This document shows positions 14,301 to 59,466 of a stretch of DNA of 64,000 nucleotides, one piece after another; positions within the stretch are counted from its first letter, which is position 1; each line of letters opens with the position of its first letter. The notes beneath the pieces were generated by a model that worked only from the letters and a program-made list of their open reading frames with translations, ran no database searches and was not told where the DNA came from. Both the position numbers and the translations under genes were made by a program. This DNA is from Watersipora subatra (taxonomy: Eukaryota; Bryozoa; Gymnolaemata; Cheilostomatida; Watersiporidae): positions 19,795,243 to 19,859,242 of the forward strand of contig NC_088709.1 in the NCBI RefSeq assembly GCF_963576615.1, given 5' to 3'.

Positions 14301-17300
14301 TGGTCTGGAGCGTACAAGCATGGTGTTTAAGTTTCAACGCTTTTCTCAACTCTCTCGAGGTTGATAGGGTAAGTGCTGCAGAACCTTGCTAGGCCTACTT
14401 ACTGTATACCATGCATATCCTCCAATGCTATATTCCATACATTTCATTGTCATACATAAAATGCCATTGCCAGAATAACTGGAGTCAGACTTGGTTATAT
14501 TATTATCTATTTGAAGTATTTATTAGAATTATAGCTTTCGAACATAATTATTATACAGAATATAATGTATTCTTGTATCTCAGCCTGAAAAATATTATGT
14601 ATTCTTGTTCAATTTTGCTGCGACATGATGGTTTTTCATTCCTGAAGCAAATATCAAAACGGATTAACTTCACATCTGGAGGTTTGACTCTGTACTTAGT
14701 TTTCAGGCATGAAAAGGTAAAGCTGTTATGTGTTACCTTTGTACACACTGTCACTGGATTGGACAAATGACAAAACTAGTTCTTGGCTTTGAAGCCCTGG
14801 CTAGCCATTCAGGCGACTAGAGAGTCAATCACTGTGTTTTCATGCTTCAAATGGGCGCGGAGTTGCCTCTACTCCAAATCAGCGAAATGGTGAAATCTGA
14901 ACAGATTTGACGGCATTTTGCTTCGCTAAATTTGTGCAAAGGCATTCGATGTGAAAAAGTGAGTCCACTTTACCAAGTTTTGTTTCGACGGAAACATCAT
15001 GAATCTTGAAAAAATCTATATAGTGCAACTTCGAATCGTTGAAAGAGATAGGTGCGAATTCGTCGGCGGTGGGCAACTCCAAACTCATTTGAAGCATGGA
15101 AGCGCAGTGAATAAAAACTCAATCATGCTGAATGCTGCGGCAGGTCAACCTTGCGTAAGGTGTAAGGTCAATACATTTGTTAAAGTCCAGTGATTGCTGT
15201 ATTTATAACATCCGCATAACACATTCCATACCCCTGCCTTTGGTTCAGTGTAAAGATATGTCAAAGGCTCATAAGGCTTTCACTAGGCTATAAATTAAAT
15301 AGTTCTAATGATTTCCTTAGTTAAGGAGTTCACTCACATCAGATTTATGTAAACTTTATCAGAAAGTATCGGTATTTTTCTATCATTTGCGATTGTTTTT
15401 GATGTTTGAGGTGGTCTGACTGCCAGGATGTTTCAAGATTAAAATCTATAAAACTTGATTACGGTTAAAACGCTTAAAAAAGACGTGCCTAGACTTCTCC
15501 CGAGGTGACGTCAGTAGTTGTGCCTATTGTTTATAACTGATAAATATACAGTCTCACCGGGTACTTGTGTGTCTTCACACCATTTATAGGAATAAAATAG
15601 GGTAATTTCTAACCAACCTACCGTATCTTTAAATTATTTGAAAAGTTAATAAAGATGTATCTGAGGCTATATTTAAAGTTTTATTCTAATGATCATGAGC
15701 AAATACAAAATAAAATATGTGACCTTTACCTAGTCCACAAATTGTCAGATTGTTTGTAAACTGAATGTTATTTTTCCATGAAGTGAGACAATTGCAAAAA
15801 TATACCATACAAATAATTGATGAAGGCTCCGTGTGCCCAATAGATTGGTTTATCGAGGTGCAGGCAAAGTTGGCAGGCAAATGGATAGTCACAGGATTTA
15901 CCAAGGACATTCCAAATAGAAATTAACATAATCTATATTTAATGGATGGAGGTGTCAATATAACTTAGCAATACAGGTTTAGTAAACCCTCTGCTTATTG
16001 GCTATCAGATGATCAGTAGAAACTATTAACGCTGAACATGCCATAGAATATCTTACGATGAGCTACCCTCAGAATTCTGTGCACCTTCGTAAAACTTATG
16101 ATTCTCAGGTGGCTTGAGAGAAATCTGTTAACGCCTAGGACTAACACCTACGGTAGCGTTGATCTGTATTGGCCTGTTCATGTTTATCTGTATATATAAA
16201 AGTGTGTATGCGTGTGAGCATCAGCTTGATCTCATTAGGCCTACAGTTGGCTGCACAGGTTTGCTGGGGAGTTTGCCTGTTTTCTACTGATCTATCGGTG
16301 AAGGTCTGACAAATAGGTTTTTCAAATTTTTTTTATTTTATATATTTGCTATATAAATTTTAATGAAATCAAAATATGGGCATGTCCATAAATAATAATT
16401 TGACATTTAGAGTTATTTGATACCAACTACATATGCACATTTGCTTCCATTATAAAATTCTTTGAATTGATTGATGCAGTACATTCTTGGCTTTCAGATA
16501 ATATAAAATTTACTGTTTTCAAAATAGCAGTTCTGGAGCTATGAAGTGCAACATGCGTAAATGATGGGACATTATAAAATGTCCCATCATTTACGCATGT
16601 TGCACTTCATAGCTCCTGAACTACTATTTTGAAAGCAGTAAAATTTTATATGATCTGAAAGCCAAGAATGTACTGCATCAATTAATTCTAAGAATTTTAT
16701 AATGGGAGCAAATGTGCATATGTAGTTGTAGCCTGTCTTGACAAGCTGTTGTTTTTGCGTAGTTGTCCCCCCGTCGAGCTGCGAGCAACAACAGCTTGTC
16801 ACAAGACGTACTGCACCTGGTGCATCAGCTGCACTTATAAGGAGTTGTTCTCGTTCGTCTACGCGGCTCGGCTGCGATGTTATTCCGGTCGCTCCATTGG
16901 TAATCATAACGGATTTCACGCAAAAATTTATGTAGAAAAATTAAGATAAGAACGTTTAACTGGCGACCCCTCTCTGCAGTAAATTTTATTAGAATTTGAG
17001 AACTTAGGCAACAACAGCGACTAAACATGTCGTTATTTGTGCGCTCAGTCAGTTTTATTTCTATTTTTGTATCAGTCAGTTTTATTTGTTCTTATGGATT
17101 TTATTTTGAGTTTATTTTATTCTTAAGTTCTACTAAAGTTTATCACAGAAACTGGTCTATGGTTAAACGTTGTAATCTTGTTTTTTTCTACATAAATTTT
17201 TGCGTGAAATCCGTTATGATTACCAATGGAGCGACCGACATAACATCGCGGCCGAGTTGCGTAGACGGAAGAGAACAACTCCCTATATGTGCAGCTGACG

Positions 17301-20300
17301 CATCAGGTGCAGTACGTCTTGCGACAAGCTGTTGTTGCTCGCCGCTCGACGGGGGGACAACTACGCAAAAACAACAGCTTGTCAAGACAGGCTAATGTAG
17401 TTGGTATCAAATAACTCTAAATGTCAAATTATTATTTATGGACATGCCCATATATGGACATGCTCATATATCATATTTAAAATAATACTTTTCATTATCT
17501 GCCTTTTTGAACTCTGCCAAATTTGTTTCGTAGTCTAACGATTTCAAATGATACTTCTTTCTGCTTAGGAAATGTTCAAATGTTCGGGAATTTTCGTTAA
17601 TTTGTTGAGTTTATCAATTTTTTTATTTTATCATTTCTATTCTTAAAATTATTTTAACAATGAAATTGTATTTTGTGATTCACAACTTTCTCCGCTTGTG
17701 TTATAAATGTACTCAAACGTTTTGAACTTACGATGGCAACAGTATGATCCTTTCTGCACACCACTCAGACATGCTTTGACTGCCCTCACATGGAGTGCTA
17801 GGGTGCAGGCTGGATACCTGCCAGCATCTGATTGTTAGCAACTTAGTGTGTACATGGAGCCCAAGGTACACCTGGAGCTAAGGGCATGCTTGGAGCTTAA
17901 GGTACACATGAAACTCCGGGCGTCCATGTAGCTCAAGGTACTCTTGGAACTCAGGGCATATATGGAGCTCAAGGTACACCTGGAGCTCAGGGCATATATG
18001 GAGCTCCAGGTACACTTGGAACTCAGGATGAACATGGGGCTCAGGACTCATCCATGATTCTTTGGTTTTTGTAACTGCAGGTTCATTTGTTCGGTGCCAA
18101 CTTAGGAGGCTTCCTCGCTCAGAAGTTTGCAGAGTACTCTGGGAATGGTCGCAGGGTGAGGTCTATGGTGCTATGCAATGGCTTCAATGACACTGATGTC
18201 TTCCAGCAGACTACATCTTCATTGTCGTAAGCTTTTGTATTGGATTAATGGGGTTAGGGGAAGCACAGGTGACCATCATGTGATCAGTTATTGGTTCTAC
18301 TCTCACAAGCTTTGATCCGCTGCATTTGTAGTGCGATTTGGAAGGTTGGTCATTGCATCAAAGACAGTTTAAGAAACAGCACCTTTAATTATATGTATTA
18401 ATTTTATACCAAATGTTTTATATTAGATGTTACATCATTCACCCTAATCTTTTTTACCCAAATTTTATCTGGGAGAACTCCTTTCACGTGTCAAAAAGTT
18501 CTCTACTTAGTGTACCGTGGCTGCTTGAACAGCTTTCTTATGTTTGTAACAAGAATATGTCAGGTTTGGCTATGGCCAGAGTATGCGCAGAAGTGGGTAT
18601 ATAGTAGTTACACACCATCATGTAGGACTCCACAGTGTATAATATACGGTAATTGTATGTATATATGTATCTATACATGTTTTATGTTATCTATGTTGAT
18701 ATATTCTATATATATATGTATAATTAAATGGTTTTGTATAAGTGGTGGTAGGTAGAGAACTCAATACAAATGTTAGCTGATAAGGTAAGTTTAGCGGTGT
18801 AGTCTGTCACTAGATCCTTGCAAAACATTTTTTCATAACAATAAGTATTCTTGTTGTGTATTTAGAAACCATAATTTTGTATACATTTATTTATTATTTC
18901 TATTATATATAAATTGATATTCTATATGTTATAAATTATTCATTATCTATATATTTATATTATTATATATATATAGATTTATGATGAATATTATAAATTA
19001 TTTATTATTTAAGTTATGTATATTATATATATATATATTTGTTGTGATTTTTTCACAATGAAGATAAGGCAGTTATACATGTCTGCAACATGTCTGATAA
19101 ATAATATAATATGTATGTTATATAATATGTATATCATATATCAGACATGTCACAGTATAACTGTCTTGTTTTTATTATGAAGAGGTCAAAGGATATAAAT
19201 GAAGGTACCTTAACATCCCCTTCATTCAATTTGTGTATAATATAGTATAACGTATAATAATAATACAAAGGGTATGAATAAAGACGAGTATAACAGTACG
19301 AGTATAATGTACTTACAATTCAGGTAAGGCTCAGGAAGCTAACCTAAAGCTACCTTCTTTTACTGGACAGTTTCTGGGCGCTGCCAGCTGTGATGCTAAA
19401 GAAGATGGTGATGGGTAACTTTGACAGTCAGGCAATGGATAGACAGATGTACGCCGCTGTCGAGTTTATGAACGCCAAGGTATGTGGCGATGTTTGGGGC
19501 GCCAATGCAGTCGATGAATAGCTGCAGGGATCAATCTCACAGAGTATGAATCACTATTACTACCTATTGGGGAAAATATTAAAAATGAGCACTAGTTGCC
19601 AGTTTGCACACTGAGCAGTTCCCATGATATCAGACCACCATGGTGCTAGTTAGACCACCTGCTAACATCAGTGAGTACTGGTAACAACATGCCAACACGC
19701 AGTGCCAGTGTCAGAGTATCGTCTGTAGTGTTTGCTAGTTGATAGATTTGAGTTTTTTGTAGATAGCTCTAATTCACACCATTTTACGCGGTGTTGTTGG
19801 GGCTGCGCCAGCTAGCATGTCCCTGGCCGAACTATTAGTTAGTATGAGCTACCAATCTATGTCCAGCCGTATCATGTCAAGGACTTAGAGCTGTTCTCAT
19901 TGTTTATGTTAAGTATTGCGGGTCCACCTCTTAACTTGTTCTCCATCACAATAACAATACCTTGGGTATATTAGCTATTTCTTTCAGCTTACAGCAATTT
20001 AATCGTTTGCGCTGGATAACAATTAGTATGTTTCCATTGTGCAAATGATGCGGATTTTGGAGTTGTGCACACATTGAGTTGCCTTGCGAGATGTATTTTA
20101 AGGACATTCACTTGTTGCGGATTAACGTTGCTGCTTTGTTAAAAAAGATACGGAATTCTACGCCGAAGGTCATAGCGAACTGCTCAAATCAAAATAGGAA
20201 CCACTGAAATGTGGAAAATGTTTAAAATGGAAAAGCTTACGCGGTAGTTTCTTGCGTATCATTCGCAAGTGCTGTTTCCATCTTTTGTGAGCTTGAAACA

Positions 20301-26908: not shown

Positions 26909-27273
26909 AGTATTAGAGTATTAGTATACTCTAATACTGTATATATAGTATACTCTAATACTGTATACGCAGTATACTCTAATACTGTATATATGGTATA
27001 CTCTAATACTGTATATAGCATACTCTAATACTGTATATAGTATACTTTAATACTGTATATAGTACACTCTAATACTGTATATAGTATACTCTAATACTGT
27101 ATATATAGTATACTCTAATACTGTATATAGTATACTCTAATACTGTATATAGTATACTCTAATACTGTATATATAGTATACTCTAATACTGTATATAGTA
27201 TACTCTAATACTGTATATAGTACACTCTAATACTGTATATATAGTATACTCTAATACTGTATATAGTATACTC
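26909..27273. repeat. minisatellite, AGTATACTCTAATACTGTATAT
   Basis: About 17 tandem copies of a unit of 19 to 23 bases that differ mainly in the length of the TATA stretch. Between maspardin and the FN2 gene. Confidence 0.9.
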
Positions 27274-33521: not shown

Positions 33522-34504
33522 TCAAACTAGGCACTTTACAGACGAGTTGTCGTCTCCCCTTTCTCTGCATACTTGCTGTATGTATGGCGCGGTCTTGGTC
33601 GTTTGATAATTGCACTTCCTGTAATAGTCATAGAGGGCTCCTATGATCTCCGTAGTAACAATATCATTCGTGTTTTTAGCTATAACTCTTATTGCGAACA
33701 CACCGTCCGGCCTCAAATAGTCTGTTACAAAATGTCGTATGCTGCGGACTTCAAGCATGCCCGTTTGCTGACGAACTTTGCAGATGACCTTGAGGTATCT
33801 GGTGATGTATGACTGGCAATTGGTACTGAAGAGCTGCCAGAGAAGCTGTAAGAAACCAAATGTGCTGAAGAAAAGGACGCAGCACATGTGGAACCAAAGA
33901 TAGATATATATCTTTTCATTGAATAAGTTAATTGGCAGCGTACATTGTATGGTGTAGTCATGAACATTCTGCATTTGTCGAATTCGAAAATCACAGAGAG
34001 TTACTCGTGGAAAAAGGAATGTTTCAGGTTGTCTATTCGCAAACAGAGCTTTCACGACTTCAACCCCGTAGAAATAGTACGAGTCCCTTCCATCAGTTAG
34101 ATAAGCGTTCATAACATAGAGTTGTCCGACAGCGTTGACGATATATAATATTTTGACTAGAACATAAAGTGACGTTAGGTAGTTGCCATATATTTGACCA
34201 ATAGGAAGGCAGAAGTGTTTGGACATGCTTTGCAAACAACGTCTGTACCGACTACGACGATACTCTCTCTGATAGGCGAGAGCTCTGTCAAAGTGTTTAC
34301 AGATGAATTTAATGCTTTTATCTCTGATATCAGGGTTGATGCTTTCCATGCCGGAGACGAGCAAAACCATTCTGTTCATATCTAGTCCAGGACGACCGTT
34401 GTTCATAGCCCAGACAATAGACGGTATGTAGCAGAAGAGGCCCTGCAAGAGCAGCATGAGAGGCACCCACTGGTAGTAGCCTATCACCTGCAGCCTTTCC
34501 ACAC
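33522..34504 (-). CDS. innexin exon 3
   Basis: Acceptor TTGTTGCAG, then [18 protein letters not shown]. Contains helices 2 to 4, extracellular loop 2 and the cytoplasmic tail ending SSVKCLV and TGA. Upstream open frame to 34622 is intron. Confidence 0.93.
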
Positions 34505-37500
34505 CTGCAACAATCACACCTGTATGTCTACCTGAACAAACAGTGAGACTAAATACCTTCAAATGCAAGAAAACAGCCAAGATTTTGTTAAGGCGTTGAT
34601 TTCTTATGTTTCCAGACAACAAACAGGTTTAAAATTACAGTGCTGTGCAATGGTAAGTAGCCCTGCATTTCATCATGGCTGGTGATGCAGGTATGTGAGG
34701 GTACATCAACCATTGTATCAGGATATATACTGGGTGTCATTAGTTGCACCTGCACTCTCTATCATACTGCATCAACTTGCCTCAAATGGGATAGCAGACC
34801 ATATTATAAACCTGGTTCTATAATCGTATACCTCAATTTTCCATAAATGTAAATTTATTAATACAACGTAATGTGCTAACGATAGATGAATGCCTATTGA
34901 TTCACGTATTGATTAATGATATTGAGTAAACAGTGCAAATATATATTATAACATTAAAAATGCCTTTTTGCTATTGTATAATAGATATTTCATTTTAATT
35001 CATGTTCATATCAACATTTAACGCAAAATAAATAACCTTAGTGTATCGCAAGGTTGTTTGGAGACATTCCATAGCGCAGCAACTTTTAAACTTTTTTTTA
35101 CGAATATTGCAGATTTATTATTATGAATGTATTTGTTTACAATAATAATAATAATAAACTCCAATAGTATTAATAACGTAAGGTAATGTATACGCTTATG
35201 CTAGTAAGACTGCACACATTGTCTGGCACCAAATATTTAGAGCAAGCTCACCAAAACTCAACTCTGTTCCTACCCTTAGGGCCATTACAGCAATTTATCC
35301 ATAAGCACTCTACAACGGCTTACACAACGCATAATGTTAAAGTCAAAACCCGAGACAGCTAGAGCAATAGCTGATACTCTACCATGCTTGTCGGGCATCT
35401 TCTCTATCGGAAGGTAGTAGGTGTTGCTGATCCAGCAGACGTGGTTTGTGTATTCTATCATTGCGTCTGTGAATGTAGCTGGGCACCAACAAGAGATTGG
35501 ATCTCCAACATACTGTTTAGTGCTAACGATCTACAACAAGAGGAAACGCAATCTGACTGGATGGAAAAATGTGGTGCAACCAATTAACCTACTTTGCTTA
35601 AGGTGTTTTATCTATTAGCCGCTGTCTATAATCAATATTTGACCAATTTTCTAAAGTATTGACCTTTATAAAATGTAGTTTTGATATCTGTTAATTGGTC
35701 TAGTGACTCATCACAAGGTCAATATTTTATAATCTAATATGTAATGTTTCTTTATCTGTTGATAAATACCAAATAAATTCCTATGGTGGTGACAAAAATT
35801 GTATATCAAGATCAATAGTAACAAAAAATGACTCGGCAGCGGTGTTACTATAGCGCAAAGATGTCAAACTCAATTGTACATGGGGCCAAAATTCAAAACA
35901 CAATCTAGGTCGCAGGCCGAACAGGATAAACATTTATTGAACACACTAAAACTAAATGTTTTTGGAACAAAAATATGGATAAAAATAGACAGGACTATAT
36001 CTCTGGAACAAACTTCAGGTTAAATTGTATGTGGCCCGCGGGCTGTGAGTTTGACACATGTGCTATAGCGTGAGGGGGATGTCTACCGTTGTATGTGGCC
36101 TACTCAGTTGATGCTGAGGTCTACCACTTGACCTGTGTCCATTACCACATTCATCTGGAAACAGATTTAAGGGGGTACTGCGGTCAAATGTATGCATGGA
36201 CCAGCAGCGTGGTGACAGCAATGTCAAAAGACAAACAAGTTACCTAAGCGAAAGAGAGGCTGAAAATTTTTTTAGCTTTTTGACAAAGCATTAAAGCCAA
36301 AATTCATCAAAAGCGTGACCTGCCCATCTAAATGGAAGCAAATTGAGTGCTTAAATTAGTTGTTCCCTCAGCCTAAAAGAGAGGTCATTGATTGAGGGTA
36401 CTACAAATGTTGCTGAAGGAGTTTTATAGGAGAATCAATCTGACAGAAGAAGCAGCACTCGCTTTTCTAAGAAATACATTATCTTGGATACAGTTCAAGA
36501 CGCAGATCCATGCCATAATTGTGGTTCTGCTAAGCAGGAAAACTGGAAGTGTAACACAGGAAGAGAATTCAAGCCTGTGTGTTGCTAGAATATATGCATG
36601 GAAATACTTGATAAAATTTTTATTTTTACCCTTATTCCTTTTTTATTGTAATTAGATATCCAATTATTTTTACTAGTCTTTTCTAAGATACATACAATTT
36701 AAGTGTTTATTGCTTACACAAATGTATGGAATGTGTTTTATCTATGAGAGACAAATAATACAGCAGTAGACTTCATGCTATAGTACTAATGTATGGAATG
36801 TGTTTTATCTATGAGAGACCAATAATACAGCAGTAGACCTCATGCTATAGTACTAATGGGAGATAGATCTTATGCTATAGTACTAATGTATGGACTGTGT
36901 TGTATCTATGAGAGACAAATAATACAGCAGTAGACCTCATGCTATAGTACTAATGGGAGATAGATCTCATGCTATAGTAGTAATGTATGGAATGTGTTGT
37001 ATCTATGAGAGACAAATAATACAGCAGTAGACCTCATGCTATAGTAGTAATGGGAGATAGATCTCATGCTATATTTCGATAGACTTCACGCTATAGTTTA
37101 GTAGACATACTATAGTTTGGTAGACCTTACGCTATAGTTTGGTAGACCTCACGCTATAGTTTAGTAGACCACACGCAACAGTTTGGTAGACCTCACGCTA
37201 TAGTTTAGTAGACCTCAAGCTATAGTTACACAAATGTATGGAATGTGTTGTATCTATGAGCAACAAATAATACAGCAGTAGACCTCATGCTATAGTACTA
37301 ATGGGAGGTAGATCTCATGCTATAGTGGGATAAACCCCACACTATAGTAGTACCAACTCAGCTGTGTGTGTCACAAGAAACGGTGTGTTAAAGTTGGTAA
37401 CAAAATTGGATGACTCAGTTTTGTGTAACCACAAAATTGTTGGTTTTATTTGTTGCTTAGCAACATTACACCTATTTTTTAGCACGATAGTTGTGTTTTC

Positions 37501-45699: not shown

Positions 45700-46600
45700 A
45701 GAGCTAACATGAGACATAGGTAGACATTAAACATGGTAAACATGAGACATGGATAGACATGGATAGACATGGATAGACTTGGATAGACATAAAACATAGG
45801 TAGACATAGGTAGACATGAAACATGGGTAGATAAGAAAACATGGGTAGACATGAGACATGGGTAGACATGAGACATGGTAGACATGGGTAGACATGGAAG
45901 ACATGAGACATACGTAGACATGAAACATGGGTAGACATGATACATGGTAGACATGGGACATGGTAGACATGACACATGGTAGACATGAGACATTGTAGAC
46001 ATGAGACATTGTAGACATGAGACATGGGTAGACATGAAACATGAGTAGACATGAGACATGGGTAGACATGAGACATGGTAGACATGAGACATGGTAGACA
46101 TGAGACATGGGTAGACATGAGACATGGTAGACATGAGATATGGGTAGACATGAAACATGAGTAGACATGAGACATGGGTAGACATGAGACATGAGACATG
46201 GTAGACATGAGACATGGTAGACATGAGACATGGGTAGACATGATACACGGTAGACGTGGAACATGGTAGACATGATACATCGTATACATGACACATGGTA
46301 GACGTGAAACATGGTAGATATGAGACATGGCAGACATGGTAGACATGAGACATGGTAGACATGAGACATGGGTAGACATGAGACATGGGTAGACATGAGA
46401 CATGGTAGACATGGGTAGACATGGAAGACATGAGACATACGTAGACATGAAACATGGGTAGACATGATACATGGTAGACATGAGACATGGTAGACATGAG
46501 ACATGTTAGGCTTGAGACATGGGTAGACGTTAGACATGGGTAGACGTTAGACATGGTGAACCCGAGATATGGTAAACATGAGACATGGTAGACACAAGTT
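45700..46600. repeat. minisatellite, GACATGGGTAGACATGA
   Basis: About 60 imperfect copies of short units (12, 15 and 18 bases) built from GACATG, GGTAGACATGA and AACATG. Because units are mostly multiples of three and lack stops on the minus strand, three minus frames stay open for over 260 codons each (Met-Ser-Thr-His-Val-Ser-Cys-Leu-Pro repeats). This is a property of the repeat, not evidence for a gene. Confidence 0.92.
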
Positions 46601-47711
46601 GATATGAAATGTATTTAACTTACGCATAGATACATCCTGCATCTTGTCCTCCTCCCTTTACTTTTTTGATGTTTGGCATAGTCAATATTACCTGCAACAA
46701 TACATGGTCAATATTACCTGCAACAATACATGATCAATATTACTTGCAAAGTGTTTTAGTAGGCTATAAGATGAGGTTACAGCTGCTGTTTTTCAATTAC
46801 TTGGTACATGTGTCAGCCACTGACAAATGCACAAAAATATTGACAGACATACAAATATTGAAGACTGCTCTAGTGTGAGTATTTAAGTAAGAACACTTCT
46901 ACCGAGACAGTTGCAACTCCTTTAATCCTTGAAAGAACGGATGATTGAGTAGTGATCAGTTCAAATTGTGACTAACAGAGAAATACATATTTTAATGATC
47001 TTTCCTGCTCTGCACTTTAAACTGGAAAGCTGGAATATTTTATTTCTAATAAACAGCTTTCCACAACAGAACAAAATATGACTAAGTTGTTACATCTACA
47101 TGCTGATTTTAACTATCAGGATTTGATATAGTTTTGTCACTAAGCTGGTGCACTGGTACTTCATGTCTTCTAAGCTACACATGAACATGCTTAATGCGTT
47201 TCTGACAAGCAAAGTAAGGCCAGTGACAGTTAATCGAGAGACTCTTGCGTCGAGATGATACAATAACGGAAAAGTGTTGATGCTGGTACAGCCGTCTATT
47301 ACATTTCTACAACTCTTATGCAGAGAAGATATTAAGATGGACAAAGATATTCAAGTAGAAAATTTGTAACCTTAGAGACAGCTGATAACTTAAGCATATT
47401 TGAAATTGTCATTTATCACTATGGTTACGGGTTTTCCACGTTCATCCACTTTTAATTCACTTTTTTGTCTCTCTCAGTTAAGGGAGAGGTGCAGGAAAGG
47501 AGTTTTTAGCTCTCATAGAATAATGGAGTGAATAAAATATAAAGCAAAGATTGTTAATTTGGTGAGATTAGTAACAAATAACTACATCAGTGCTTGTGCG
47601 AGAAACCCAGCATCACAATAGCTTCATGTCGGCTTCATAGAGCCATCAAATAGATCCTAGCTAAAGCTATCTTTGTGGCAATGTAAGCTAAGAATAGTGG
47701 CTAGGAACAGT
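46600..47711. other. gap before the P-like element
   Basis: A three-fold GTCAATATTACCTGCAACAA tandem at 46681-46750, otherwise nothing recognised. Confidence 0.4.
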
Positions 47712-47857
47712 GGCTAGGACATTGAACTCAAACCCCTGGAATGGGCAAGGTCATTCGCGAGTACGGAAATCCATCGGCGCCATGTTGAGTTAAGCGTGTG
47801 GGTAAATTTCATTGTGTTCAATCTGAGAAAAGAAATCTAGTTTCTCATTTAACAGTT

Positions 47858-48020
47858 ATGAAAGATCACGAATACACCGCTAAATTGAAGAGACAGACTA
47901 CTGAGACGACTGCTAATAATTCATGCAAGCGACAGAAGGATGTAAGTGCACAGTGCTATTCCATCAACTGCAAAAACCGCAGGAATGCACTTTCAAAAGA
48001 GAAGGGCATAACATTTCGAA
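47858..48020 (+). pseudogene. P-like transposase exon 1, start of THAP domain
   Basis: ATG at 47858, then a basic leader and SAQCYSINCKNRRNALSKEK and GITFRK, donor GTGAGT. CYSINC supplies the first two Cys of the C2CH zinc module of a THAP DNA-binding domain. The basic leader before it is longer than usual. Confidence 0.65.
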
Positions 48021-48140
48021 AGTGAGTCACTTCTACTACTAGTTCTATTACTATTGCTACTGCTAGTCTACTATTACTACTACTAGTAGTAGCGCTATTA
48101 CTAGTTAGTACTACTACTAGTTAGTTCTACTACGCTAGTC
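48020..48140. repeat. TACTACTAGT-rich simple repeat
   Basis: Degenerate (TAC) and (CTAGT) repeat in the first intron of the P-like transposase. Confidence 0.7.
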
Positions 48141-48479
48141 AGTGGGGAGTGAGAGTCGAACAGTGTCACTACTGAGTGTGTGAGTGTGACTGTAGGTTGT
48201 CAGTGATTAGATGAATTTATATACTAGTGAGTAAACTTTTTTCCTTCTAAAATGAAGGTTTTTTATTATTTAAATTTAAAGTTTTTATTATAATATTTAG
48301 GCACTACAAACCATTGCATTATTTCTAAATAAATGTTTGAAAAAATGTTTGTAGTGCATATAATATTATTTATTGTTGTACCAGAATATAGCTAACTAGC
48401 AGTAAGGAGGTAAGAGTAGTAATACTACTGTTATTACTAATGTTGCTAACTAACGGCTACAGTTTCATTTTACCTTATA

Positions 48480-48677
48480 GATTGCCAAACAAAGTAACTG
48501 AGAACTTTTGTTATTTACAATAGCATTGCAACTGCAGAAGAGTGACTAAGCCTGGTGCTTGGGCACTTGTCTGCAGCAAACATTTCAACGATCCATGTTT
48601 TGACACAATAGGCCAAAAAGATCGACTGAAACCAGATGCTGTGCCCACACTGTTTACACTGCCCAGTCATTTAAAGG
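48480..48677 (+). pseudogene. P-like transposase exon 2, rest of THAP domain
   Basis: Acceptor CCTTATAG. LPNKV, then an in-frame TAG at about 48522, then VTKPGAWALVCSKHFNDPCF (the C-x2-H ligands) and RLKPDAVPTLF, the AVPTLF signature of THAP domains. The stop codon breaks the domain unless a different splice is used. Confidence 0.7.
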
Positions 48678-48789
48678 TTTTTCCTAAAGTTGAATAGTGT
48701 TTTTTAATGATTGAATTAAAAACAATATTGTCAAGCACAGTGCTTCTAGGTTGTTCAACTTATTGTAGATATATCTAAATTTCTTTCAG

Positions 48790-48909
48790 AAACCTCAAAC
48801 AGCACGCAAAACAGCGGCAGCTGCCACAGCAAGTGCTTATGAGTATGATGTCTGCAGCTTAGCAGAAGATGTTCATGTGAATCTCTCTAGTGATACATCT
48901 GTGGCAATG
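48790..48909 (+). pseudogene. P-like transposase exon 3
   Basis: Acceptor TTTCTTTCAG, ends at GTTAGT. About 39 residues, Ala- and Thr-rich (KPQTARKTAAAATASAYEYD), the usual low-complexity linker after a THAP domain. No domain of its own. Confidence 0.5.
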
Positions 48910-49228
48910 GTTAGTACTTCTTTGCAGTATTTCTGCAATTTGTTTGTTGTCATTTTTGTTGAAGTAATCTCATGAATGCAATCTATTTTGCATGGTTGAT
49001 AAAGAAATTTCCATTAAGCGTTACGCCTAAGATGTGTGTGAATGACTTCCAGTGAAAATTGCGACATTTTAATTTTACATACCGAAATGTTAGCATTTTG
49101 ACTTATTTTATTTTGACCAAATTTTGCATAGCTGCATTGTTGTATCTTAATTTTACTATCTTTTATGTGACTGAGACATTCATTTTCATTGAATTTATGT
49201 AATTGTTATACTTGATGATTCTGTTTAG

Positions 49229-49780
49229 GTGGTTGGAATAATAATCCTACTGTTACTCAGTTTAAAGCTACCTTTCGCAAACTTATCAGCAAATGTGGTG
49301 CAGAATCAGATGCTGGTAAGGCAGCTGATGTTACTGCTCAAGACGAGATTCTCATGACATGGGCTACTCCAGAAGTTGATCAGTTTGTGGAGCTGCAATG
49401 ATTTCATATGTCAAAACTTCCGTTATAGGTAACACAATATGTATAGTCTATACAGCTGGCTACATTGTGCGAAAGCTAACTAAAGTGCTGTCATGTGACA
49501 TTTTCTGTCAGTCGCTGGTTACCACTAAGTCAAGTATCCAGTACCGACATCTCTATACTCTACTCGAGCTACAAAACAATGGAGGATTGGTGCATCCATG
49601 AGACGATGTCATCAAAATCCTGCGAGCTGCAGATCCGATACTTTCGTATTAATGCAAAACCAGATACGTTCCATTGTGTGGTGTAAGTTATCAGTAGTGT
49701 GGGCTCTGGTGATGTGCTATGCTTTGGGAAACACCTTACAGACCCAGCAGATGACATATTCAAACACCGTGTTTCATTGA
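49229..49780 (+). pseudogene. P-like transposase C-terminal fragment
   Basis: After TCTGTTTAG: GGWNNNPTVTQFKATFRKLI, then a stop after VDQFVELQ at 49400, then in another frame YTAGYIVRKLTKVLSCDIFC and ELQNNGGLVHP, stop, DDVIKILRAAD. GGW-NxPT-xxF, then Y-AGY-VRKL with C-x2-C and NNGGL are landmarks of the C-terminal part of P-element and THAP9 transposases. Several stops and a frameshift mark it as a relic. Confidence 0.65.
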
Positions 49781-50671
49781 TGAGAAACCTCATTCAGTCT
49801 ATGATCCCCGACAGCATAATTATGCTAAAAATTGTACATTCAAACTGCAAAGCAGTTACTAACCAGTGAAAATGTAATCACTGTAATATTCATCTGTGGC
49901 TGTTGTATAGTTATTTCTAATCTGATTTAGTTTTAAGAAACTGATACACATTGGCTCAATATCTATATATCTCAATATCTAGTGATATACAAATCTCCTT
50001 TTACACAGTTTTTGTAATGTGTATATATAGGTTCAATCATCTGATTACACTGCTTCCAGCATTTCCTTGTTTGCATTCTTTTTATTATCCACTATTACAA
50101 CTGTTTTTAATGTCCGTTTAGTTGTTGCAGTAGTTTATTCCATACTTTACAGATACTATATTATACATATCATACATTCATGGGCTATTATCACTTAAAT
50201 CTTGAAAGCAGTTTCTGTTTTCGCAGTATATGTGTTGTTTTTATCATATGAAATACTTCATGTGCTAGGTATCTCCATAATGGTTTATGCATCTTTAATA
50301 TCATCTGTAATATAATGAAACAGTTGTTATTTGCCTGAATATATCACTTGCTGGGTTTATGCATCTGTAATACAACAGTTTGTATGAATAATATGGTCCA
50401 CTAAAGCCTATTTTACATCCAACTATATTATATCCTACTCCATATGTTATAAATACATTTTCTTTTATCAGGCACTCTGAACGCTGTGTAGGAGTTGACA
50501 TTAACACAAAAGTAGAAAATAACCATTCAACATATACACTTCTGTCCTTTTCACTGTTTGTTTACATCCGTAAGGGTACACGATTAACTCTCCAATATGG
50601 CGCATGCACTACGCATCGCTATTAGTGTAAAAGTCACGTGATTGCCATTCCAGAGGTTATGAGTTCAATTG

Positions 50672-50815
50672 GGTAGGAACAGTGGCTAGGAACAGTGGCT
50701 AGGAACGGTGGTTAGAAGCAGTGGCTAGGGACAATGGCTAGGAACAGTGGTTAGAAATAGTGGCTAGAAACAATGGTTAGGAACAGTGGCTAGGAACAGG
50801 GGCTAGAAACAGTGG
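50672..50815. repeat. minisatellite, AACAGTGGCTAGG, beside the P-like element
   Basis: About ten copies of a 13-base unit. Two units also lie left of the element (47693-47719), so the transposon interrupts the array, or the array grew from its target duplication. Confidence 0.85.
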
Positions 50816-51256
50816 CATGATGGAGCGACAGCAGATACAGCGAGTGAAAATGAGACTTGATCTTCCAACCAGTTAGCATGGATAACTTATCAGGTGTTTT
50901 TCTTAGACCAAGAAAAGCCCATTTGATAGTGTACAGACTGACAGATAAGTTTTATTAATAGAAAAAATGCTTTTGCAACAATGCAAGAGCTTGCTGCTAT
51001 ACACCTTAGTTTGCTGATAGCTGGAGGAATGAAAAGAAATAGAGTTAAATTGACAAGATATAAAAAGATAAAACTGCTAATGGCTATAGAGGCAGAGTTT
51101 CTGATTACCATCTTTGTTTCCTTCATGTTTAATATTATTATTAAATAATAGAATTGTATCCAATTTGTTGAAACACCTCATAATGGATGTAGTGAACAAA
51201 AGAACAGCAATCAGTGACCTGTTTAAAAGTAGAACTGGCTCAAACTGGGAAATCAT

Positions 51257-58690: not shown

Positions 58691-59067
58691 CATTGCAGTG
58701 CATTAACTTTGCAATAGTTTTGCAATAATTTTGCATTAGAAACTTGTAGTGCAGCAATTTTGCACTACAAGTTACTAATCTGCAGTACACATTTACTGCT
58801 ACTGCAAATGCACTCATATTGCAAATTGCCCACTGCGATCTACTGCCCATTAACTTCCGTTATGCATTACTGCAAACTCAGCAATTCATGCATACTGCAA
58901 ATGCACATTTTTCTAAACTTGTTTAACACTAGTAGCAGTTGCAATATAAAAAAGAAAATTATAGCTTGCTAATTAGGTATTTAGTAAATAATTCCATCTA
59001 TCGAAAAATTAAATTTTTAGTTAGTGGTACCTAGTGTGGCTTCAGTAAAAGACAATGAGTTGTTCAA

Positions 59068-59466
59068 TACACAACACTACATACACAACACTACATACAC
59101 AACTCTACATACATAACGCTGCATACACAACACTACATACACAACGCTACATATACATCGCTACATACACAATGCTACATACACAACGCTACATACACAA
59201 CACTACATACACAACTCTACATACATAACGCTGCATACACAACACTACATACACAACACTACATATACATCGCTACATACACAACGCTACATACACTACA
59301 CACACGACACTACACGCACAACACTACATACACAACTATACATACACAGCGCTACATACACAACGCTACATACACAACGCTACATACACAATGCTACATA
59401 CACAACGCTACATACACAACGCTACATACACAACACTACATACACAACACACGACACTACATACAG
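59068..59466. repeat. minisatellite, ACACAACGCTACATAC
   Basis: About 27 copies of a 14-base unit with variants AACACTACATAC, AATGCTACATAC and ATCGCTACATAC. A larger unit is doubled (59085-59170 and 59190-59275). Confidence 0.92.

Follow-up and report, generated by a model that had tools for sequence, protein, structure and literature searches.

A probable decayed copy of an internally deleted P-superfamily transposon in the bryozoan Watersipora subatra

The element, its borders and its coding remnants

The DNA analyzed here, referred to as the window, is a stretch of 64,000 nucleotides of Watersipora subatra (contig C2, positions 19795243 to 19859242, in an assembly of 783.7 Mb and 239 contigs). 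It harbors an innexin gene fragment on the minus strand (33522-34628; PF00876, E = 4.7e-62), of a family that occurs in protostomes and cnidarians, as well as long tandem arrays (26918-27273, 36718-37228, 45706-46594, and 59067-59465), and a region of five nested inverted-repeat pairs, including 212-nt arms that are 94% complementary (16343-17484), which looks like a foldback element. A search of the window against Rfam gave no match. The element under study, 2951 bp long with inverted ends, lies at positions 47720 to 50670, and its predicted coordinates proved exact to the single base.

The terminal inverted repeats, of approximately 29 bp, span positions 47720-47748 (plus strand) and 50642-50670 (minus strand), and the left end is common to other copies. 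Local alignment of the two ends gave a score of 39, compared with a maximum of 21 among 500 shuffles, and in the majority sequence of 19 aligned copies the 29-bp ends are complementary at 28 of 29 positions, in line with the ~30-bp repeats originally described. Immediately outside lie the target-site duplications GGCTAGGA (47712-47719, plus strand) and GGGTAGGA (50671-50678, plus strand), which agree at seven of eight positions. The element is surrounded by a minisatellite with the 13-bp unit TGGCTAGGAACAG (47687-47719 and 50670-50816); because both flanks belong to this tandem repeat, their match is weak on its own. The near-identical 8-bp flanks noted in the original prediction are present, and it is the other copies that establish an 8-bp duplication, seen directly at all eight positions in L014, L016, L018, L020, and L024. 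A subterminal inverted repeat had also been claimed. In the window copy it is clear, with a left arm GCGCCATGTTGAGTTAAGCGTGT (47777-47799, plus strand) and a right arm (50578-50603, minus strand) whose score was equalled by 2 of 500 shuffles and, in a second test, by none of 200. However, it is poorly kept in most of the 19 copies (window included): in eight, including L019 and L030, which score through other stretches, at most 10 of 200 shuffles did as well, and from the majority sequence the repeat is absent, with 311 of 500 shuffles equally good.

Next, the coding remnants of the window copy, all on the plus strand and with exon limits set by eye, were evaluated by a Pfam search of seven pieces. 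Remnant exon 1 (47858-48021), delimited by eye and by translation, holds an ATG and the first half of a THAP domain (CYSINC) and is open here; in Pfam it gave two sub-cut-off matches to unrelated models. The second half, to the predicted AVPTLF ending, is carried by remnant exon 2 (48481-48676), which has an in-frame TAG at 48521-48523 and matches the THAP model PF05485 over positions 48524-48697 (E = 5.7e-8). Remnant exon 3 (48790-48909), a linker with splice-like AG/GT borders, had no Pfam domain match. It is followed by an intron-like stretch (48910-49228) with a donor-like GTTAGT at 48910 and an acceptor-like TTTAG before 49229, which is the putative site of the deletion junction and thus the place where the P helix-turn-helix (HTH), RNase-H N-terminal, and GTP-binding domains would be missing. 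The majority sequence has the same layout of exon 3 and intron-like stretch (~320 bases) before the GGWNNNPT exon.

Beyond this stretch are C-terminal transposase remnants with a broken frame (49229-49860), comprising the GGWNNNPT and YTAGYIVRKL motifs and later pieces. The TNP-like P-type RNase-H C-terminal model PF21789 matched over positions 49219-49401 (E = 2.7e-6), so that the GGWNNNPT fragment fits the transposase C terminus it was taken for and the proposed comparison of the 49229 fragment with P/THAP9 transposases came out positive. The YTAGYIVRKL motif, assigned to the same C terminus, fared less well: the window piece matched neither Pfam nor PDB, and its majority version reached the THAP9_C model PF22824 at a sub-threshold E of 0.025 (14.6 bits, below the cut-off of 24). 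Two C-terminal window pieces and one majority piece had no PDB match up to an E of 10, and the other five Pfam pieces gave sub-cut-off matches to unrelated models (two pieces) or none (three). By itself, the C-terminal fragment would be weak evidence; the THAP and RNase-H C-terminal matches, both above the Pfam cut-off, lie on the same strand and in order.

Copies across the genome and their coding status

When the genome was searched with the whole element (40 of 977 candidates scored, 64 pieces returned), at least 10 other places aligned end to end in one piece at approximately 81 to 83% identity, with alignments that began no more than 9 bases from the left end and stopped no more than 19 bases short of the right end. 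The identity of the 19 aligned copies to their majority, 60-base flanks included, ranged from 0.886 to 0.947 (0.887 for the window copy), and mean pairwise distances ranged from 0.096 to 0.142 (0.139 for the window copy). By eye, L010 and L012 have flanks in common, as do L019 and L032, indicating that the copies are not all independent insertions. Among 46 family loci examined, 20 were without both ends and 26 had both; two of the latter were second fetches, leaving 24 distinct places. The 8-bp flanks at these places, window included, agreed at 8/8 positions in five, at 7/8 in four, and at 6/8 or fewer in 15, scored with shifts of up to 3 bases per side, under which low scores mean little.

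The original prediction had asked whether other copies in the genome have these ends, and hundreds of sites do. With up to two mismatches, the 29-base end was directly observed at 264 forward and 293 reverse sites genome-wide, compared with none on either strand for a reversed-pattern control. Among these 557 matches, 100 were listed, every one perfect and on contigs C1 to C5, and these contained 26 facing pairs less than 20 kb apart: 20 spaced 2847 to 3195 bp, one at 4497 bp, two at exactly 5288 bp (C5:8402913-8408200 and C5:12867529-12872816), and three at 11.9 to 19.1 kb. Position 10 of the end is mostly T among the matches listed, whereas it is mostly C in the left ends of the window family, and none of the 26 listed pairs coincides with a place found by the whole-element search. 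Therefore, the listed perfect-end pairs may belong to a distinct, younger class of elements.

Coding capacity is broken in most of the copies examined. A stop falls within THAP exon 1 or 2 in 18 of the 19 aligned copies; the sole stop-free copy, L021, no longer has an ATG, and part of it is out of frame. The majority sequence has no intact reading frame. Substitutions per site across the 19 copies were 0.077 in exon 1, 0.071 in exon 2, 0.050 in exon 3, and 0.056 in the C-terminal exons, and similar in the three introns (0.067, 0.083, and 0.066); within exons, third positions showed no excess and were no faster than first positions. Since stops are this frequent and exons have diverged as much as introns, most copies look like non-coding passengers. 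The single window copy is most likely inert. A later check covered 21 loci outside the 19-copy set, 12 of which had both THAP exons readable. Three of the 12 (L037, L038, and L040) have both exons open with an ATG, and the remaining nine are broken or without an ATG. L037 and L038, located at ~61.7 and ~61.9 Mb of C1, were near-equal matches in the element search and may be one duplicated copy. L040 (C1:76994200-76997200) has a larger deletion, a THAP match of 1.1e-11, and no recognizable left end. These loci may represent an older branch that stayed coding for longer.

The missing catalytic core and a sister element

No Pfam match to the RNase-H N-terminal or GTP-binding domains was obtained in the window pieces. 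Genome-wide, the RNase-H N-terminal model had at least 175 matches (150 of 342 candidates scored) and the THAP model at least 150 (150 of 736 candidates scored). Ten of the RNase-H loci were compared with the family and had no long DNA in common with it; the longest match, of 24 bases, lay at the end of L063. This locus, on C9, was extended upstream and corresponds to a sister element whose THAP layout resembles that of the family by eye. Its Pfam matches comprise THAP (1.1e-5), the P HTH domain PF12017 (6.4e-15), the RNase-H N-terminal domain PF21787 (7.3e-30), and the GTP-binding domain PF21788 (1.3e-16); its exon-1 piece alone had no match. The right end of the sister aligned with both family ends (score of 46 each, not reached in 500 shuffles each), and a left end was looked for and not found. 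For L057, a second sister copy, the alignment of its end with the family ends was marginal, being equalled by 7 and 14 of 500 shuffles. The sister's RNase-H exon, the only piece to show likeness to the Drosophila P element by sequence search, matched the Drosophila P transposase structure 6p5a at 4.6e-7.

The RNase-H and HTH exons of the sister were then compared with the 46 family loci; the best E was 1.7 and the core was observed in none, indicating that its absence belongs to the family and not to the window copy alone. The original prediction had described the window copy as having lost its catalytic middle and gained stops. Both are seen (TAG at 48521-48523), but the loss of the core is not private to this copy. 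The same comparison led us to reject the extra middles of some copies as surviving transposase. A genome-wide search with the sister's RNase-H exon (143 of 143 candidates scored) gave 62 matches, none of which falls inside the 5288- or 4497-bp end pairs, and the 5288-bp pairs, being without such a match, were discarded as autonomous masters. The 100 ends among the matches listed (C1 to C5) all lie more than 22 kb from the 69 listed RNase-H sites. The window copy had also been proposed as a marker for active relatives; related P transposases do exist in the genome, but none has the family's own ends among the matches listed. On C8, P-type RNase-H matches, many of them truncated or interrupted by stops, were also seen in clusters at ~8.0 to 13.6 Mb and 49.5 to 49.7 Mb.

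Origin of the family and alternative explanations

As described above, the window element is very probably a decayed member of a non-autonomous family of P-superfamily DNA transposons with an internal deletion, probably moved in trans by a P transposase. The family is new and non-autonomous, within a known superfamily. Its ancestor would have been a THAP-bearing P element with several introns, in which a deletion between two introns may have removed the HTH, RNase-H N-terminal, and GTP-binding exons, giving a derivative of ~2.95 kb that retained both ends. P transposase from full elements would then most likely have bound these ends in trans and excised the shortened element, with the terminal and perhaps the subterminal repeats as sites of action, and reinsertion around the genome would have left the 8-bp duplications. 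We infer this trans mobilization from the kinship with the sister element and from general P biology, as given in the available portions of two reports (PMC7776569, PMC1562414).

A THAP domain alone cannot distinguish P elements from Kolobok, another superfamily with THAP domains, whose target duplication is TTAA. The 8-bp duplications seen at the copies vary in sequence and are not TTAA, the C-terminal match is to a TNP-like P-type model, and P HTH and GTP-binding domains are present in the sister; a Kolobok identity was therefore rejected as exceedingly improbable. Nor is there any appreciable chance that the locus is a THAP9-like host gene or pseudogene, as its THAP and C-terminal remnants, separated by intron-like gaps, might suggest, since the common ends present as hundreds of matches and the exact 8-bp duplications rule against it.

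Another reading concerns the remaining THAP portion. The available text of a review describes internally deleted Drosophila P elements as often encoding repressors, such as KP (PMC7776569), and this family, or one of its older branches, might likewise have been kept because the THAP protein of the shortened element binds the ends and blocks transposition. The open exon 1 of the window copy and the intact THAP exons of L037, L038, and L040, the last with its strong domain match, are in favor, and since these three loci lie outside the 19-copy set they add weight to such a role and take some from the passenger reading. However, the interrupted frames of 18 of the 19 copies, the defects of L021, the equal divergence of exons and introns without third-position excess, the nine further defective loci, and the unrecognizable left end of L040 argue against it, and we regard it as rather unlikely. 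A further reading, less likely than not, is a recently active P system in which a young class of ~3.18 kb with perfect 29-bp ends would have been spread by some transposase, and an older branch with THAP only (L037, L038, and L040, to which the window copy would be a decayed cousin) would have acted as a KP-like natural repressor.

Returning to the internally deleted, trans-mobilized element that we favor, shortened P relatives are known from mosquitoes, Drosophila, and zebrafish in the available parts of the reports (PMC1562414, PMC7776569, PMC10983969). The P-MITE families of Anopheles gambiae, as excerpted, are likewise non-autonomous, with P ends and 8-bp duplications, measure 205 to 2450 bp, and number 5 to 310 copies each (PMC1562414). 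Their centers are given there as unrelated to P, whereas the Watersipora family retains THAP and C-terminal exon remnants and thus looks like a plain internal-deletion derivative. According to the portions available of a preprint (PMC10983969), zebrafish Pdre2/THAP9 shares ends starting with CAT, 8-bp duplications, and internally deleted relatives, and has subterminal repeats, which here are clear in the window copy and weak in most others; in contrast, its ends are 13 bp and its subterminal repeats 12 bp, compared with the 29-bp ends found here, and zebrafish THAP9 is reported active, whereas no working partner was found for the Watersipora family among the matches listed. Drosophila P and KP, in the review text available, have 31-bp ends, internal inverted repeats, 8-bp duplications, a THAP transposase, and shortened copies (PMC7776569); the 19 aligned Watersipora copies differ in their disrupted THAP frame, although it is open in three other loci.

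P-like elements outside insects and vertebrates had been called poorly described, a statement in need of correction, since the accessible passages of the review and preprint already place them in Ciona (PMC7776569) and sea urchins (PMC10983969). None of the literature titles or abstract openings searched names the family. The finding extends the P superfamily by a sizeable non-autonomous family, along with a sister element in which the missing domains are present. Should a partner bearing these ends come to light, the rules of end recognition known from fly and zebrafish could be compared in another animal. THAP genes are described as expanded in Hydra, Capitella, and Crassostrea in the available text of another report (PMC10027918). 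At a further locus, L056 (C2:60041000-60047000), a long minus-strand frame resembles a Helitron helicase by eye.
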